Positions 4,630 to 50,716 of a stretch of 64,000 nt of DNA are shown here, piece after piece. Below the pieces are notes generated by a model. That model saw nothing but the letters and a program-made list of their open reading frames with translations. It did not search any database and was not told where the DNA came from. How positions within the stretch are numbered: position 1 is the first letter of the stretch; the number at the start of each line of letters is the position of its first letter. Both the position numbers and the translations under genes were made by a program. This DNA is from Chloroflexota bacterium (lineage in GTDB: Bacteria; Chloroflexota; Anaerolineae; B4-G1; DUEL01): positions 252,001-316,000 of the forward strand of contig JADBJJ010000023.1 of assembly GCA_014874475.1 (NCBI GenBank), written 5' to 3'.

Positions 4630-5674
4630 GGTCTCTTTCCTGCGCGAAATGCTGGAAATCTACAGCCCCTCCGGCCACGAAGAGGAAATATCCGCTTACC
4701 TGGTGGCCCGGATGCGAGAAATGGGCTTCCGCGCGCACCCAGATGGGGCCGGAAACGCCATCGGCGTTATGGGCGATGGGGAACAGGAACTGATACTCCT
4801 GGGCCACATGGATACGGTGGAAGGGTTCATACCTGTCCGGCTTCAGGACGGATGCCTGTACGGGCGGGGGGCCGTAGACGCCAAGGGGCCGCTGGCCGCC
4901 TTCATCCTGGCCGCCGCGCGGGTGGGACCCGTCCCCAACTGGCGGATTGTAGTGGTGGGCGCGGTGGAGGAGGAGTCTTCCTCCCGGGGGGCCCGCCACC
5001 TGCTGGGCCATTTCTCCCCCCAGGCCGTCATCATCGGCGAACCCAGCGGTTGGGAGCATATCACGCTGGGCTACAAGGGCCGGCTGCGGGTCCTCTACCG
5101 GCTGGCCGCGCCGGCCCGCCACTCCACCGCCGAGGGCCCCTCCGCCGCTGAGCAGGCCGTCCGTTTCTGGAACCGTCTCACCGCATTCGCCGACCAATTC
5201 AACCGGGGGGAGCGGTTCCGGTTCCACACTCTGGACCCCACCCTCCACAAAATCACCACCCACAACGGCGGATTTGAGGAGGAAGTGGTCATGGACATCA
5301 CCCTCCGCCTCCCCCCAGGGGTGAGCATCCCCGATCTCAAGGCACAAATCCGCTCCTGGGCGGAGGACGCCGCCATCGGCTTCGGTGGCGAGGACGTCGC
5401 CTACAGGGCGGAGAAGAACACCCCTCTGGTCCGCGCGTTCCTCCAGGCCATCAGGGGATTGGGGGGAACCCCGACCTTCAAGGTGAAACTGGGAACGTCG
5501 GATATGAACACTGTGGGCCCGATATGGCGCTGTCCCATCGTTGCTTATGGGCCGGGCAATTCCCGTCTGGACCACACTCCCCAAGAGCACCTGGACCTGG
5601 AGGAGTTCCGCAGAGCCGTCTGCGTGCTGGAAGAAGCGATCCGCAAGGTAACCTGCGCTGAAGTTCAAACATAA
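4613..5674 (+). CDS. lysK: LysW-lysine/ornithine hydrolase (LysK, ArgE/DapE-like M20 peptidase)
   Basis: Zinc-dependent M20-family carboxypeptidase of 353 residues that releases lysine or ornithine from LysW, ending the carrier-bound stage. The metal site is visible as GHMDTVEG, then AVDAKGPLAA, with VEEESSSRGA holding the general-base glutamate, and a C-terminal histidine in DHTPQEHLD. Possible ATGs lie at 4613, 4619 and 4622; the GGAG at 4605-4608 fits the first two. The last codons (AEVQT-stop) lie inside the left arm of an intergenic inverted repeat at 5658-5755, so the extreme C-terminus may have been supplied by that repeat. Confidence 0.9.
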   Translation: MTMMDEVSFLREMLEIYSPSGHEEEISAYLVARMREMGFRAHPDGAGNAIGVMGDGEQELILLGHMDTVEGFIPVRLQDGCLYGRGAVDAKGPLAAFILAAARVGPVPNWRIVVVGAVEEESSSRGARHLLGHFSPQAVIIGEPSGWEHITLGYKGRLRVLYRLAAPARHSTAEGPSAAEQAVRFWNRLTAFADQFNRGERFRFHTLDPTLHKITTHNGGFEEEVVMDITLRLPPGVSIPDLKAQIRSWAEDAAIGFGGEDVAYRAEKNTPLVRAFLQAIRGLGGTPTFKVKLGTSDMNTVGPIWRCPIVAYGPGNSRLDHTPQEHLDLEEFRRAVCVLEEAIRKVTCAEVQT

Positions 5675-5755
5675 CTTCGGACAAGGGGACGTAGAAGAGG
5701 CCGAAAGCCTGCCCCTGGGACGGCCCGTCTTGTCTGAATTATGTCCGAACTTCAG
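5658..5755. repeat. 98-bp palindromic element between lysK and argG
   Basis: The left end CTGAAGTTCAAACATAA and the right end TTATGTCCGAACTTCAG are inverted copies with two mismatches. The pairing continues inward (ACTTCGGACAAG against CTTGTCTGAAT), giving arms of nearly 30 bp around a GC-rich centre. The sequence ATGTCCGAACTTCAG recurs exactly, in inverse orientation, at 34468-34482. The element overlaps the end of lysK. I see no clear target duplication here. It could fold as an attenuator or mRNA-protecting stem between the lysine/arginine genes and argG, or be a decayed mobile hairpin. Confidence 0.65.
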
Positions 5756-31268: not shown

Positions 31269-31697
31269 TCATTCCCTCACTGTCCGGGTGGTGAAAATCA
31301 CCAGGACGATTCCCAGACCCAGCAGCCAGAAGTGAATCAGGGCCTCTATAAGGATTTCCGGATGTTGATAGAGATAGAGGCCGTTCTGAAGGAAGAACAG
31401 AATGTCCATCAGGGCCAGGAACAGTATTGCGCTGCCGGCCATACCGGCCCAGTGCCGACCCCACTGCCGTTGCCGTAACAGGCCGAAGGCGCCGATGAAA
31501 GAGGCCAGAATCATCCATCCATCGGCGACGATAAACGAACGCTCCCACGGGTACCATGCCGGGCATATCTGGGCCAGGAACCCCTCCTGAGGGTTCTTAA
31601 AGGCGAAGACGATCCAGAAGATAAGCGTTCCCAGCCCGGTCAGACCCAGCAGGACGGCCAAGATGTTTTTGCCACTTTTTAAATTTCTACTCGCCAT
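31269..31697 (-). CDS. Small membrane protein, unknown function
   Basis: 142 residues with four hydrophobic segments (about 12-31, 50-70, 80-102 and 115-137). The ATG at 31697 lies inside the last codons of cysS (19-bp overlap), so it is translationally coupled. The frame is open to 31775, but that part lies entirely within cysS. I do not recognise the family; conserved motifs are not evident beyond aromatic residues near the membrane. Confidence 0.7.
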   Translation of the reverse strand: MASRNLKSGKNILAVLLGLTGLGTLIFWIVFAFKNPQEGFLAQICPAWYPWERSFIVADGWMILASFIGAFGLLRQRQWGRHWAGMAGSAILFLALMDILFFLQNGLYLYQHPEILIEALIHFWLLGLGIVLVIFTTRTVRE

Positions 31698-33133
31698 GTC
31701 GGTCCTTCCGGTCGGTCCTCCACAATGATGCCCAGTTCTGCCAGGCGCTGGCGGATGGCATCGGCGTGCGCCCAATCCTTCGCGGTCCGATACTCCTGCC
31801 GCAGGTCCAGAATCAACCGCATCAGCCCGTCCACCAGCCCACTGCGCGCTTCCGGCGGCTCCAGTTGGTCGGGGATAATACCCAGAATCTGGCCTCCCAG
31901 TTCGCTGAACATCTGGTCTATGGCAGCGAGGGTGCCCCGAGTCACAGACTGCCCGGAATCCAGCATCCGGTTGACCGCGCGCGCCAGGTCGTGCAGCGCG
32001 GCTATAGCCCTGGGAGTGTTGAAATCATCGTCCATTGCCGAGAGGAATGCCTCCCGGTACGGGTCCAGGTCATTTACATATGAAAGGTCTGCAGTGCCCT
32101 CTGGCATCGCCAACTCCTTCATTCGGGCCCGGACGGCGCGGACGGTGTTGTGGAGACGGCGAACCCCCTGCTCGGCGGCCTGCATGGCTTCGCGGGAATA
32201 GTCCAGCGTCCCCCGGTAATGGGCGGAGAGAATAAAAGCCCGGATGACCTCCGGACGATAGAGTTTTAGGGCATCCTTAATGGTCAGGAAATTGCCCAGG
32301 CTCTTGCTCATCTTGACCCCGTCCACCGTCAGAGAACCGGCGAGAATCCAGTAGCGGGCAAAGGGGTTGCCGGTGACGGCTTCCGCCTGGGCGATTTCGC
32401 ATTCGTTGTGGGGGAAAAGGTTATCTATCCCGCCGCCGTGGATGTCAAAAGTCTCCCCCAGATATTTGGTCGCCATGACGGAGCACTCAATATGCCAGCC
32501 GGGATAGCCCCAGCCCCAGGGGGAGGGCCAGCGCAGGATGTGTTCCGGCTCCGCACGCTTCCAGAGGGCAAAGTCTGCGGGGTGGCGCTTCTCCTCCCGC
32601 ACTTCTACCCGCGCGCCGGGTTCCAGTTCCTCCACCTTCCGACCGGAGAGTTTCCCGTATTCGGGGAACTTCTCCACGGAAAAATAAACGTTGCCATCCA
32701 CTTCGTAGGCGTAGCCCTTCTCTATCAGCGTCTTGATCCACTCAATCTGCTCGGGGATATGGGCGCTGGCGCGAGGGGAGATGTTCGGGCGGACGACGCC
32801 CAGCGCGTCCATGTCCTCAAAGTAGGAGCGGGTGTAAATTTCCACCAGTTCCATCGGCTCCACCCGCTCCCGCCGGGCACCTTTAAGGATGCGGTCTTCC
32901 CCTGTATCCAGCAGATGACCCACATCGGTGATGTTCTGAACGTAGCGGACTTTGTAGCCCAGGAAGCGGAAGTACCGCACCACCGTGTCCATAGCGACAT
33001 AGAGTTTGGCATGGCCCAGGTGGGCATGGTCGTAGACGGTGGGGCCGCAGACGTACATGTACACCCGTCCGCGCTCCAAGGGTTTGAAGACTTCTTTTTG
33101 ACGAGTCAGATAATTGTAGACCTGCAGGGCCAT
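31679..33133 (-). CDS. cysS: Cysteine--tRNA ligase
   Basis: Class I aminoacyl-tRNA synthetase of 484 residues. The HIGH motif appears as [10 protein letters not shown] and the KMSKS loop as [13 protein letters not shown]. Zinc ligands are visible in YVCGPTVY, in the HIECSVMA region and in [10 protein letters not shown]. The start at 33133 ([14 protein letters not shown]) is the family start; an open frame extends to 33187. It lies 28 bp after the PIN-TRAM gene. Confidence 0.96.
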
Positions 33134-33161
33134 TCGTCTCCCTCCTGTTTCGTACCCTATA

Positions 33162-34205
33162 CTACGTATGTTCCACCGGGCGGGCAAATATCATCCGACC
33201 GGCAGCAGTCTGAAGAACTTTCGTCACCACTGTATCTATCTCCGCACCGATGAAGGAGCGACCGTTCTCCACCACAACCATTGTCCCGTCCTCCAGGTAG
33301 CCCACGCCCTGGTCGGGCTCCTTGCCTTCCTGGATGATGTGCACCTTCAGGCCCTCGCCAGGCAGATAAACGGCGCGCACTGCGTTGGCCAGTTCGTTGA
33401 CGTTCAGCACCGTCACGCCCTGAAGTTCCGCCACCCGGTTCAGGTTGTAGTCGTTGGTGATGATCGGACAGCGGAGGCGTCGGGCCAGCAGGACCAGTTT
33501 GTCGTCTGCCGAACGGGCCTCGGGGGCATCCAGGTCCACAATTCGCACCGGGACGCCGGGTTCTTCCTGGAGGCGGCGGAGCATATCCAGCCCGCGTCGC
33601 CCCCGATTGCGCCGCAGCGGGTCGGGGGAGTCGGCGATGTGCTGGAGTTCATTAAGGATGAAGTGCGGCACCAGCATCTCGCTGCGAATAAACCCGGTCC
33701 GGCTGATGTCAGCGATGCGCCCGTCAATGATGACACTGGTATCCAGAAGGACTGGGGGAATCTCCCCCCAGTCTTCGGGCCGTTCGGGGAGCCGTCCTCT
33801 CAGGAAGGCGAAGATTTCCTGCTGTCGGGACGTCATCACCAGCACGCCAATGTAGCCGAAGAGCACCGCGCTGATGAAGGGCAGTATCTGGTTCAGAGGG
33901 CGGGGCAGCATAGAGAGGGGGAATGTGCTCAGCGAAGCAACGATCAGGCCGATGATCAATCCGAGAATGGCCGCCAGTAGTTGCTGGACGGGCATCCGGT
34001 TGATTTTCTGACGCAGGAATCGCAGCGGGCGCACTGTGAGGTATGGGGTGAGGGTTAGACCTGCCAGGGCGCCGACCAGCATAAAGGTCGTGCCATACAG
34101 ATAAGCAGAGGTTTCCGCAAGGGCAGCAAAACGCACACCTAATACCAGTCCTCCAACAGCCAGAACAAGCATGCCCACTATTCGGGAGATGAAATCGGAG
34201 CTCAT
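33162..34205 (-). CDS. Membrane PIN-TRAM domain protein (YacL family)
   Basis: 347 residues. An N-terminal block of about four membrane segments (about 5-140) is followed by a PIN nuclease domain (VLLDTSVIIDGRIADI with the catalytic aspartates, DDKLVLLARRL, ITNDYNLNRVAELQGV) and a C-terminal TRAM domain (GEGLKVHIIQEGKEPDQGVGYLEDGTMV). This is the YacL layout, a conserved but poorly understood predicted membrane-bound RNase. GGAGGAG lies before the ATG at 34205, which I prefer to the upstream codons that remain open to 34463. Confidence 0.9.
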   Translation of the reverse strand: MSSDFISRIVGMLVLAVGGLVLGVRFAALAETSAYLYGTTFMLVGALAGLTLTPYLTVRPLRFLRQKINRMPVQQLLAAILGLIIGLIVASLSTFPLSMLPRPLNQILPFISAVLFGYIGVLVMTSRQQEIFAFLRGRLPERPEDWGEIPPVLLDTSVIIDGRIADISRTGFIRSEMLVPHFILNELQHIADSPDPLRRNRGRRGLDMLRRLQEEPGVPVRIVDLDAPEARSADDKLVLLARRLRCPIITNDYNLNRVAELQGVTVLNVNELANAVRAVYLPGEGLKVHIIQEGKEPDQGVGYLEDGTMVVVENGRSFIGAEIDTVVTKVLQTAAGRMIFARPVEHT

Positions 34206-34435
34206 TCCACTCCTCCTTCCGACGGCGCGATAGAGTTGATGGGGCACTGATGTCCGGCTAGTCCATCGGCGGAGGCAAAGAGCGGCGAATGAAGTGGCAA
34301 AAAGGCTTAATGATTCAGAATGAGACCAGGAAACGCTTCTCGTATCGCTCCGCCGTCCATCATGGCAACAATAAATTCGCAAAAATACCCGCCATATGGA
34401 GGACCGGCCAGCATCGCTCAGCCCGCAGCAAAGAT
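34206..34435. other. 5' leader region of the PIN-TRAM operon, no gene
   Basis: About 220 bp between the ATG at 34205 and the likely promoter at 34436-34463. I see no coding region, strong hairpin or T-run. It would form a long untranslated leader. Confidence 0.4.
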
Positions 34436-34463
34436 ATCTTATCACACTCCTATAAAAAGTCAA
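34436..34463 (-). promoter_or_regulatory. Promoter of the PIN-TRAM/cysS operon
   Basis: Reading the minus strand: TTGACT (34463-34458), 16 bp, TAAGAT (34441-34436). Its -35 box overlaps the left direct repeat of the element at 34468-34852. Confidence 0.5.
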
Positions 34464-34467
34464 AAGG

Positions 34468-34852
34468 CTGAAGTTCGGACATCTGCTTTTTCACATTCAG
34501 GCCTCCCCCGGGCCGCTCTCCGGATCAGCGTTTTTGACCCTCAACCCGAGGGGCGAGGAACCCCTTTGGAACCAAGGGTCCGGCCACGCTGCGGGGTAGG
34601 CTGTAGCCATCACTCTATTTTCGGCGGGTGGAAGAGAGGAGAAGCGGATGGATTTTTCCTTCGCCCTCCTCCCCTGGCCGAAGGCCGGAGGGAGGGAGGA
34701 TCAAAGAGGCGAGGGGGGATACGCGGCCCCCCCGCCCACCCCGGAGAGGGTTGATACGAAACCTGCGCTTGTTCAAGAGTAAAGGCGGAGCCGATGAGAA
34801 GAGCAGGGAATCCCTGCAGATATCCTTATCCCAACTCGTGTCCGGACCTCAG
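34468..34852. mobile_element. Candidate MITE-like non-autonomous element (385 bp)
   Basis: The left end CTGAAGTTCGGACAT and the right end GTGTCCGGACCTCAG are inverted copies matching at 12 of 15 positions. Both are flanked by the same 6-bp direct repeat AAAAGG (34462-34467 and 34853-34858), as expected for a target duplication. The 15-bp left end occurs exactly, in reverse orientation, at the right end of the palindrome 5658-5755. The interior has no convincing gene and holds GC-rich palindromes, for example CTCCCCTGGCCGAAGGCCGG near 34668. No transposase is present, so it would need one in trans. Confidence 0.5.
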
Positions 34853-34926
34853 AAAAGGCGATAGAGAACAGACGATAGAGAGCCGACCCCAGATGACTGT
34901 GGACTGATCACTGAGTGCGGAGGGGA

Positions 34927-35412
34927 CTACTTGCCGGGCTGGATGCTCTGCCGCCAGGCCATGCCTCCCAGGGCCAGGAGTCGTTTCAAGTGTCTCTGCA
35001 AATAGTGATCCGTCAACTGAGCCCGGACGGCAGGGTCCAGATGGTACTCGTTGATGATAAATTCCAGAACCGTGTTGATTTCGGAATGTTCCAGGTCGTG
35101 AGCATAGTAGTATGCATCGTTCAGGTCACGGAGGCCTTGAAGCGTATCCTGGGGAGAGAACTTTAGGCATTCCCGCAGTTTGTGCATCATATCCGGATTG
35201 GCCGGAGCCTGCAGTTGCTCGGGGGTCAGGCGAGCCCGAACCTCTTCCAGGAAGCGAATGTGTTCTTCTTCGTCCTCCATCATTTTCTGCCAGATAGCAG
35301 CAACGCGAGGGACATGACCGAATAGACGGAGCAGCCCTTCATAGAATTCTCTCGCTATCTGTTCAGCCTGGATGGCCAGGGAAAATAGTGTCTCCACCGT
35401 GTCCTCGCTCAT
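34927..35412 (-). CDS. Ferritin-like / rubrerythrin-family protein
   Basis: 161 residues, all helical in appearance. Conserved metal ligands fit the ferritin-like four-helix bundle: E in AIQAEQIAREFYE, EDEEEHIRFLEE, and DLEHSEINTVLE with another Glu/His set. There is no rubredoxin domain. GAGG lies before the ATG at 35412. The gene begins 9 bp after the methylmalonyl-CoA mutase stop, so the two are co-transcribed. Possible roles are iron storage, peroxide defence or a di-iron oxidase; none is proved. Confidence 0.78.
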   Translation of the reverse strand: MSEDTVETLFSLAIQAEQIAREFYEGLLRLFGHVPRVAAIWQKMMEDEEEHIRFLEEVRARLTPEQLQAPANPDMMHKLRECLKFSPQDTLQGLRDLNDAYYYAHDLEHSEINTVLEFIINEYHLDPAVRAQLTDHYLQRHLKRLLALGGMAWRQSIQPGK

Positions 35413-35421
35413 TTTCCTCAC

Positions 35422-37086
<1,665 letters not shown>

Positions 37087-37101
37087 CGGGCCTCCTGGAG
37101 A

Positions 37102-37172
37102 AGAATCAGGGAATCGGAGAATAGAGAATCAGAGAATCGGAGAATCGGAGAATCGGAGAATCGGAGAATTGG
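37102..37172. repeat. 8-bp tandem repeat (AGAATCGG)n upstream of mcmA
   Basis: About nine units, most of them AGAATCGG, with single-base variants at both edges (AGAATCAG, GGAATCGG, AGAATTGG) and one 7-bp unit. It starts about 15 bp before the mcmA ATG on the minus strand, so it sits in the mcmA leader. The unit number could vary by slippage. Confidence 0.85.
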
Positions 37173-37471
37173 TTTGCATTTTTGCAAGCGTTAAAATTGT
37201 TGCTTTCTGCCTCCAGCCCCGTCTTTTGCCCGCGCGCCTTCGGCGGCAGGAGAGGGGTGGGAAGTTGGAGGATTCGGCGGTAGCCTCCAACCGCCGCCCC
37301 ATCCTCTCTTCATCCCCCCACCCAACCCTCTCTTCATCCCCCCGCTCGGGGACAGAGGGAGAGCCAGGGGCAATGAGGTTCGCACGGGCGCAGAGGGTGT
37401 CCACCAAATGATGAGCCACCTCTCACGGGCTACTAAAATATACCGCGAAAGTGAAATATGGTCAAAAGAAC
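37173..37471. other. Intergenic region without genes
   Basis: Between mcmA and pyrD. It holds a direct repeat of CCTCTCTTCATCCCCCC (near 37300-37345) and a CTTCGGCGGCAGGAGAGGGG hairpin half near 37228-37257. No coding region or RNA gene is visible. Confidence 0.5.
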
Positions 37472-49414: not shown

Positions 49415-50716
49415 GTGGCTACATTCTACCTGCACAGTCTGGGCTGTCGGCTGAATCAGAGCGAACTGGAGGCACTGGCCCGCCAGTTGGCCGGGATGGG
49501 CCACCAGGTGGTAGATGACCCCGCTCGGGCGGACATTTGCGTGGTCAACACCTGCGCCGTCACCGCCGAGGCGGAACGGAAGACCCGCCATCTGCTGCGA
49601 GCCCTGGCGCGGGCCAATCCCCGGGCCCGCATCGCCGTCCTGGGCTGCGCGGCCACGCTGCGGCCGGAGGAACTGGCCTCCTTTCCCAACGTCGCCTGGG
49701 TCATCCCCAACGAGGAGAAAGACCGGACGGCAGAGCGGATCCTCCCCACCCCTCCCCCGGCCCTTCCGACCGCTCCCTCTCCCCTCCCGACTAAAGGCCA
49801 GGAAAGGGATGGAGGTAGCGGCGAAGCCGTTGAGGGCAGGATGAGGACCCGCGCCTTCGTCAAAATCCAGGACGGCTGCAACAACGCCTGCACCTACTGC
49901 ATCGTCCACATCCTGCGCGGCCCGGTCCGCAGCCGCCCGCCGGAGGAGGTAGTGACGGAAATCGCAGCGCGGGTCCGGGAGGGCCACCAGGAAGCCGTCC
50001 TGACCGGCGTCAACATCGGTGCCTACGGCCAAGACCTGGGGCTGAAGGACGGACTGGCGGGCCTGGTCCGATCTATCCTGGATCAGACCGACCTGCCCCG
50101 TTTGCGCCTCTCCTCAGTGGAGCCCTGGGACGTGGATGAATCCCTTCTGAGCCTCTGGCCTGACCCTCGCCTCTGTCGCCAACTCCACCTGCCCCTGCAA
50201 TCTGGCTGTGCAGCGACGTTGCGGCGGATGGGCCGCCGGATGACCCCCGCCGAATACGCCCGTCTGGTGGAGCGGATTCGCGCCGCCGTCCCGGAGATGG
50301 CCATCACCACCGATATCATCGTCGGCTTCCCCGGGGAAGACGAGGCGGAGTTTGCCGAAAGCCTGGCCTTTGTGGAGCGGATGGCCTTCGCCCGCCTGCA
50401 TGTCTTCCCCTTCTCCCCCCGGCCGGGCACCCCCGCCGCCCGGATGGAGGGACAGGTCCCCGAACCAGTGGTGCGGGAGCGGGCGGCCCGGATGCGGGAA
50501 CTGGGGGAGCGGCTGGCGACCCGCTATCGGCGACGGTTTTTGGGCCGGGAGATGGAGGTGCTCTGGGAGCGCCGTCGGCGGGATGGCCTCTGGCACGGCC
50601 TGACCGACAATTACCTTCAAGTGGTTACCACCAGCCCGGACGACTTGTACAACTGCATCACCCGCACGCGCCTGCTGAAGGAGGACAATGGCTTTTTGAC
50701 CGGAGAAGTGATATAA
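49415..50716 (+). CDS. mtaB: tRNA N6-threonylcarbamoyladenosine methylthiotransferase (MtaB type)
   Basis: Radical-SAM methylthiotransferase of 433 residues that adds a methylthio group to t6A37 of tRNA. The N-terminal cluster-binding domain carries GCRLNQSE, NTCAVTAEAE and GCAAT cysteines; the radical-SAM site is CNNACTYCIV; the C-terminal domain is TRAM-like. The start is GTG at 49415. A Pro-rich insert (about residues 112-145, 49748-49850) with PTPPPALPTAPSPLPTK separates the first two domains; family members normally have no such stretch, and its DNA resembles the intergenic palindromes of this genome. Confidence 0.9.
   Translation: MATFYLHSLGCRLNQSELEALARQLAGMGHQVVDDPARADICVVNTCAVTAEAERKTRHLLRALARANPRARIAVLGCAATLRPEELASFPNVAWVIPNEEKDRTAERILPTPPPALPTAPSPLPTKGQERDGGSGEAVEGRMRTRAFVKIQDGCNNACTYCIVHILRGPVRSRPPEEVVTEIAARVREGHQEAVLTGVNIGAYGQDLGLKDGLAGLVRSILDQTDLPRLRLSSVEPWDVDESLLSLWPDPRLCRQLHLPLQSGCAATLRRMGRRMTPAEYARLVERIRAAVPEMAITTDIIVGFPGEDEAEFAESLAFVERMAFARLHVFPFSPRPGTPAARMEGQVPEPVVRERAARMRELGERLATRYRRRFLGREMEVLWERRRRDGLWHGLTDNYLQVVTTSPDDLYNCITRTRLLKEDNGFLTGEVI

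Follow-up and report, generated by a model that had tools for sequence, protein, structure and literature searches.

A short non-autonomous element inserted beside a promoter in a Chloroflexota genome, and a family of such elements with putative Tn5/IS4-type transposases found upstream of predicted promoters

Insertion immediately upstream of promoters is described as an unusual habit among bacterial DDE transposons, and as one confined to Mutator-type enzymes, in Guerillot et al. 2014 (PMC3942029). There, TnGBS, ISLre2 and some ISKra4 elements are reported to insert 13–17 bp upstream of sigmaA promoters, with TnGBS at 15–17 bp from the promoter, ISLre2 corresponding to p-MULT 3 and the ISKra4 group to p-MULT 4; either side of the element is used when its two inverted repeats are nearly alike, and contact between transposase and RNA polymerase is proposed. 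The family described here resembles those systems, as that text presents them, in consisting of DDE transposons that land upstream of promoters, but it differs in having what appears to be an IS4/Tn5-type rather than a Mutator transposase, in its many short non-autonomous copies, and in a peak at 9–10 bp that falls outside the 13–17 bp distance to the -35. With the IS4 superfamily (Tn5/IS50 structural type) it shares the DDE_Tnp_1 domain, the Tn5 fold and, in two of three transposases, a YREK-like spacing, whereas NCBIfam IS4 scores below cut-off, duplications of 6–8 bp and promoter targeting set it apart from the insertion sequences of that superfamily. MITEAba12, as described in PMC6382973, is likewise a short non-autonomous element mobilised in trans by an insertion sequence and flanked by a target duplication, but its duplications are 9 bp long, its targets are AT-rich, its promoters lie inside the element and it does not target promoters. 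In the literature found, the promoter-upstream habit had been reported only for the unrelated Mutator-type transposons; no report of IS4-type promoter targeting was found, which is weak evidence because preprints, most subscription papers and ISfinder lay outside the search.

The window, meaning the whole 64,000-nucleotide stretch of DNA analysed, belongs to a 3.0 Mb, Anaerolineae-like genome (G000; 97.7% complete), with Thermoflexus sp. RSWP15 among its named relatives. At positions 34468–34852, without an assigned strand, it contains a 385-bp element that an earlier note had put forward as a candidate MITE. The hexamer AAAAGG directly abuts both ends, at 34462–34467 and 34853–34858, as that note had read, and the 12 of 15 inverted positions it had counted are confirmed between CTGAAGTTCGGACAT and CTGAGGTCCGGACAC, the latter being the right end given as its reverse complement. 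The left terminal inverted repeat (CTGAAGTTCGGACA, 34468–34481, plus strand) is an exact family end whose inner second motif has decayed; the right one (CTGAGGTCCGGACACGAGTTGGGATA, 34827–34852, minus strand) is bipartite and has two mismatches against the family 26-mer. A search for exact 6-bp direct repeats flanking ends with at least 12 of 15 inverted positions, at a spacing of 60–1500 bp, matched the window only here, whereas 20 shuffled windows together yielded 17 matches; the element judged by its own sequence is therefore a pattern at chance level. Its reality follows from comparison, that is, from a break in homology, an empty site and an element with the same ends in another relative. 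Inside the element no match to the transposases of relatives and no terminator-like site was found, and no fold was better than those of shuffled sequences (z -1.24). Beside the right end, at 34851–34878, lie two imperfect 14-bp copies of AGAAAAGGCGATAG.

The element is absent from same-genus relatives. DNA homology to the same-genus genomes G001, G003 and G004 reaches 34466–34468 and then ends. An empty site, which the earlier note had proposed looking for in close relatives, is present in G004 (L009, identical in contig sequence to L027): there a lone AAAAG runs straight into the far flank, which is marked by the conserved 3' end of a ferritin-like/rubrerythrin-like ORF (34927–35421 in the window, minus strand; Pfam match below the curated cut-off). 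Repeats similar to AGAAAAGGCGATAG, of the form GACGATAGAC, fill this empty site in L027. A chance origin of the window element is ruled out by the empty site. A different element occurs in G006 (L011 and L072; L030 is on that contig as well). It is 136 bp long, has ends of the same kind and a duplication of its own, TGACCA, and lies 5 bp from the site of the window element at the same promoter, so that two species were hit independently at one promoter.

Judged by this comparison, the window element is a non-autonomous (MITE-like) insertion. It has terminal inverted repeats and a target duplication, with an empty site in L027, and it has no transposase of its own, while there are related insertion sequences with matching ends, by which it would have been mobilised. 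Multiple near-identical copies are lacking in G000, where the only full-length DNA homologue of the 385-bp element is the element itself and only the ends recur; plasmids held no full-length homologue. The designation MITE therefore stands for an inserted, non-autonomous element with a 6-bp duplication beside a promoter, and in its multi-copy sense it applies to the ends alone because G000 has no second full copy.

The promoter next to the left end (34436–34463, minus strand) reads away from the element and is predicted from the -35 hexamer TTGACT at 34463–34458, a 16-bp spacer and TAAGAT, with TG before the -10. The first gene after it is a PIN-domain ORF (33162–34463, minus strand), whose true start is probably near 34207, and cysS follows (31679–33187, minus strand). 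The overlap of the left duplication with the -35 of this promoter, another point of the earlier note, amounts to two bases (34462–34463); the duplication restores the -35 box, and the promoter is intact, as are four native bases that precede the -35. L007, L008 and L027, which are without this element, share the conserved promoter, as does L030, which carries the different one. At another locus, L095 of G003, where the duplication is 9 bp long, G004, G002 and G000 have the promoter conserved and lack the element. The element thus does not bring the promoter with it, and at both loci tested the predicted promoters are older than the insertion. Changed expression of cysS, or of rlmB or holB, the last two named by the earlier note, is possible. 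The window element lies at an offset of 4 from the -35, at the edge of the family distribution and outside its main peak, so that this copy alone would not reveal the landing rule. What the earlier note missed is that promoter adjacency is a habit of the whole family and not an accident of the window copy.

A search for recurring ends, also among the checks proposed by that note, revealed this family. G003 holds 18 occurrences of the exact 14-base end, G005 six, G006 three and G000 four, with no match to the reversed control in these four genomes, and this end was matched in 7 of 60 relatives. Of 13 family-level genomes, 8 contain the 26-base bipartite end, at 154 places in total (reversed control, 0). 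A reading of the window element as unique to this locus is rejected. Short copies measure 95–240 bp, have target duplications of 5–9 bp, most often 6 (AGGATG in L087), and are multiple in G003 and G007.

The full-length relatives encode a Tn5/IS4-type transposase. Copies of about 1.2–1.3 kb, with a transposase of 376–385 residues between matching ends as the earlier note had suggested seeking, were found by a class-wide search in other families of the same class (L105, which is the G211 copy, L115, L106 and L108). Transposase remnants are present in G005 and G006; a C-terminal remnant (L088) and a 56-residue N-terminal remnant (L080) each gave no significant family match when taken alone. No transposase was found in the 97.7% complete host genome, and the window copy is therefore probably stranded now; the identity of the enzyme that mobilised it we infer from the transposases of its relatives. 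DDE_Tnp_1 (PF01609) scores above cut-off in all three relatives' transposases analysed. The NCBIfam IS4 models score best but below cut-off (NF033591, 74.6–85.5 bits against 152, in 3/3 proteins), indicating that these transposases form a branch separate from the NCBIfam IS4 equivalogs. With a limit of E 0.1, the Pfam and NCBIfam matches include no Mutator, ISLre2 or ISKra4 model, an outcome that tends to speak against membership in the Mutator-type group. A PDB sequence search gave no meaningful match. A predicted structural model (pLDDT 66.5) best matches Tn5 transposase (Foldseek 3ecp_A, E 2.7e-07; VIA-align Z 14.3, rmsd 6.1, 319 aligned), with ISCth4 a weaker fold match at Z 6.1. The IS4 superfamily is characterized by the signature Y-(2)-R-(3)-E-(6)-K, which is exact in two of the three transposases, P0001 having D for E. 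The enzyme is rare, since only 2 of 400 genomes in a sample of the phylum carry it at E 1e-20 or better. A pattern was matched by 21 stretches of viral contigs, with no relative among them, and plasmids yielded one weak match, an unannotated stretch in Rhodothermus marinus (NC_015970.1, 29552–29878) with 40% to the transposase C-terminus, which suggests that the transposase family may reach beyond Chloroflexota.

In a first listing of flanks, TTGAC faced outward at a narrow distance from the element ends and was followed by a -10 box. The promoters counted here are consensus predictions (sigma70-like, score at least 5.6, reading away from the element) and not mapped ones, the score weights and threshold having been fixed only once set 1 had revealed the pattern; the offset is the distance from the element end to the -35 box on the outside flank. 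Set 1, from the bacterial family, comprises 145 ends, all with 60 bp or more of flanking sequence outside the element (147 before this filter); relative to the 154 places it lacks some from G007 and G004, and some of its ends match the 14-mer only. A promoter accompanies 72 of these 145 ends, 60 of them at offset 7–13, two at 4–6 and ten elsewhere. Shuffled flanks gave 7.25 promoters overall and 1.4 at offset 7–13, random positions in the same loci gave 0.94 at offset 7–13 with a maximum of 3 in 100 draws, and reverse-complement reading gave 9 promoters in all. Set 2 was gathered from ten genomes of other families after the hypothesis had been formed; 19 of its 52 ends have a promoter, every one at offset 8–11 and none elsewhere, and shuffles of the first 46 ends gave 0.34 at offset 7–13. 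Set 3, from G561 of another class and G056, has a promoter at offset 8–11 in four of six ends.

The distribution is narrow in the two larger sets. Among promoter-bearing ends the -35 lies at offset 9–10 in 41 of 72 (set 1) and 15 of 19 (set 2), and outside offset 4–13 in ten and in none, respectively. TTGAC at offset 4–13 is followed by a -10 in 38/40 cases in set 1 and 13/16 in set 2, compared with 11% of the 109 TTGAC in the window. When the -35 is ignored, TAnnnT boxes lie at offset 32–34 in 38/69 (set 1) and 12/17 (set 2). The first six flanking bases show no strong base preference. With alike flanks removed, set 1 retains 144 of its 145 ends and set 2 retains 48 of its 52, indicating that the landing sites are independent. 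Two-ended elements, which had to match the looser 26-mer at both ends and therefore do not include the window element with its decayed left end, number 48: a promoter lies on one side in 34 and on both sides in three, hence on at least one side in 37, and the 11 with no qualifying promoter on either side speak against a family rule. In the host genome only two of seven ends have a qualifying promoter. An ORF start with a ribosome-site-like sequence occurs within 250 bp in 20 of the 26 cases with enough sequence.

Taken with the insertion, its duplication, the empty site, the prior promoter, the positional enrichment and the transposase type, all read at the level of sequence, it is highly probable that the window element is a MITE-like derivative of the Tn5/IS4 superfamily that was mobilised in trans and inserted beside a pre-existing PIN-domain/cysS -35, and that its family targets promoters systematically. 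The transposase of a related insertion sequence would act on the element in trans, place its edge about 9–10 bp ahead of the base at which the -35 begins, in either element orientation, and duplicate 6–8 bp without preference for particular bases among those duplicated. We infer that the transposase itself chooses the site, most likely by attaching to RNA polymerase holoenzyme that already occupies the promoter; the contact might be made with sigma region 4 or with the C-terminal domain of alpha, in the manner of an activator bound near -41.5. The centre of the duplicated bases lies about 43 bp before the start site, close to the place at which class II activators contact the polymerase. The element would thereby enter a place that leaves the gene and the core promoter intact.

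Among other explanations the one that survives best, although we consider it unlikely, is that the transposase reads the promoter DNA itself, as the sequence or shape of TTGAC-spacer-TATAAT, without RNA polymerase. A DNA-binding contact would also produce a fixed distance to the -35; however, some 32 bp separate the insertion edge from the -10, spacers of 16–18 bp are tolerated, and weak -35 boxes are allowed, a -10 accompanying 28 of the 41 boxes at offset 7–12 that begin with TTG and are not TTGAC. In all three respects this is the way in which the holoenzyme reads promoters. A good deal less probable is that insertions are kept because the element end serves the downstream gene as a regulatory or insulating part. 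The ends do adjoin promoters of housekeeping genes such as PIN-domain/cysS, and the same promoter has been hit twice, in two species, but the ends do not resemble AT-rich UP elements, both orientations occur, the presence of the element at one locus varies between close species, and the window element has neither a terminator-like site nor folding better than shuffles. Slightly weaker again is the explanation that transposition is random and that selection retains only insertions just upstream of promoters, where gene and core promoter stay unbroken. Intergenic DNA upstream of the -35 is poorly conserved in relatives, and insertions there should be tolerated; such tolerance predicts a spread upstream, whereas the -35 peaks at 9–10 bp in both sets, a peak for which selection alone does not account. 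That no mobile element is involved and the inverted and direct repeats arose by chance is scarcely credible, since, despite the equal patterns in shuffled windows, homology breaks exactly at the element end, an empty site is present, and the end sequence recurs in relatives while the control does not.

Promoter targeting by an IS4/Tn5-type transposase, if true, would mean that the habit arose at least twice, with a structurally different transposase and a different distance. The chances are about even that an IS4/Tn5-type lineage evolved the use of the polymerase as a landing beacon independently of the Mutator-type TnGBS, ISLre2 and ISKra4, placing short elements 9–10 bp upstream of the -35 where they would be safe for the host and possibly regulatory. 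The family would then offer a second system for asking whether transposases grip RNA polymerase, the flanks of its elements would mark promoters in uncultured Chloroflexota, and such an enzyme could be used as a tool to direct insertions to positions ahead of promoters.

Several further repeats were observed. The left end of the window element recurs exactly at 5742–5755 (minus strand), within the inverted repeat after lysK, in agreement with the match that the earlier note had described. It belongs there to a 98-bp element with the same ends (5658–5755) between lysK and the next gene, which reads like argG; its left end provides the lysK stop codon, a target duplication is not seen, and an outward TTGACT lies 12 bp past its right end without a clear -10. 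At another family end in the host genome (L138, G000:C21:366932-366957), TTGACA lies 6 bp outside and is followed by a TATCAT box. A short tandem repeat at 37006–37194, read in an ORF as repeated ESEN/RRIG units, lies between a methylmalonyl-CoA mutase gene and the next gene. A copy of a palindromic G+C-rich repeat lies at 49759–49854; this repeat also makes up the interior of the G003 elements and occurs at dozens of places in same-genus genomes.
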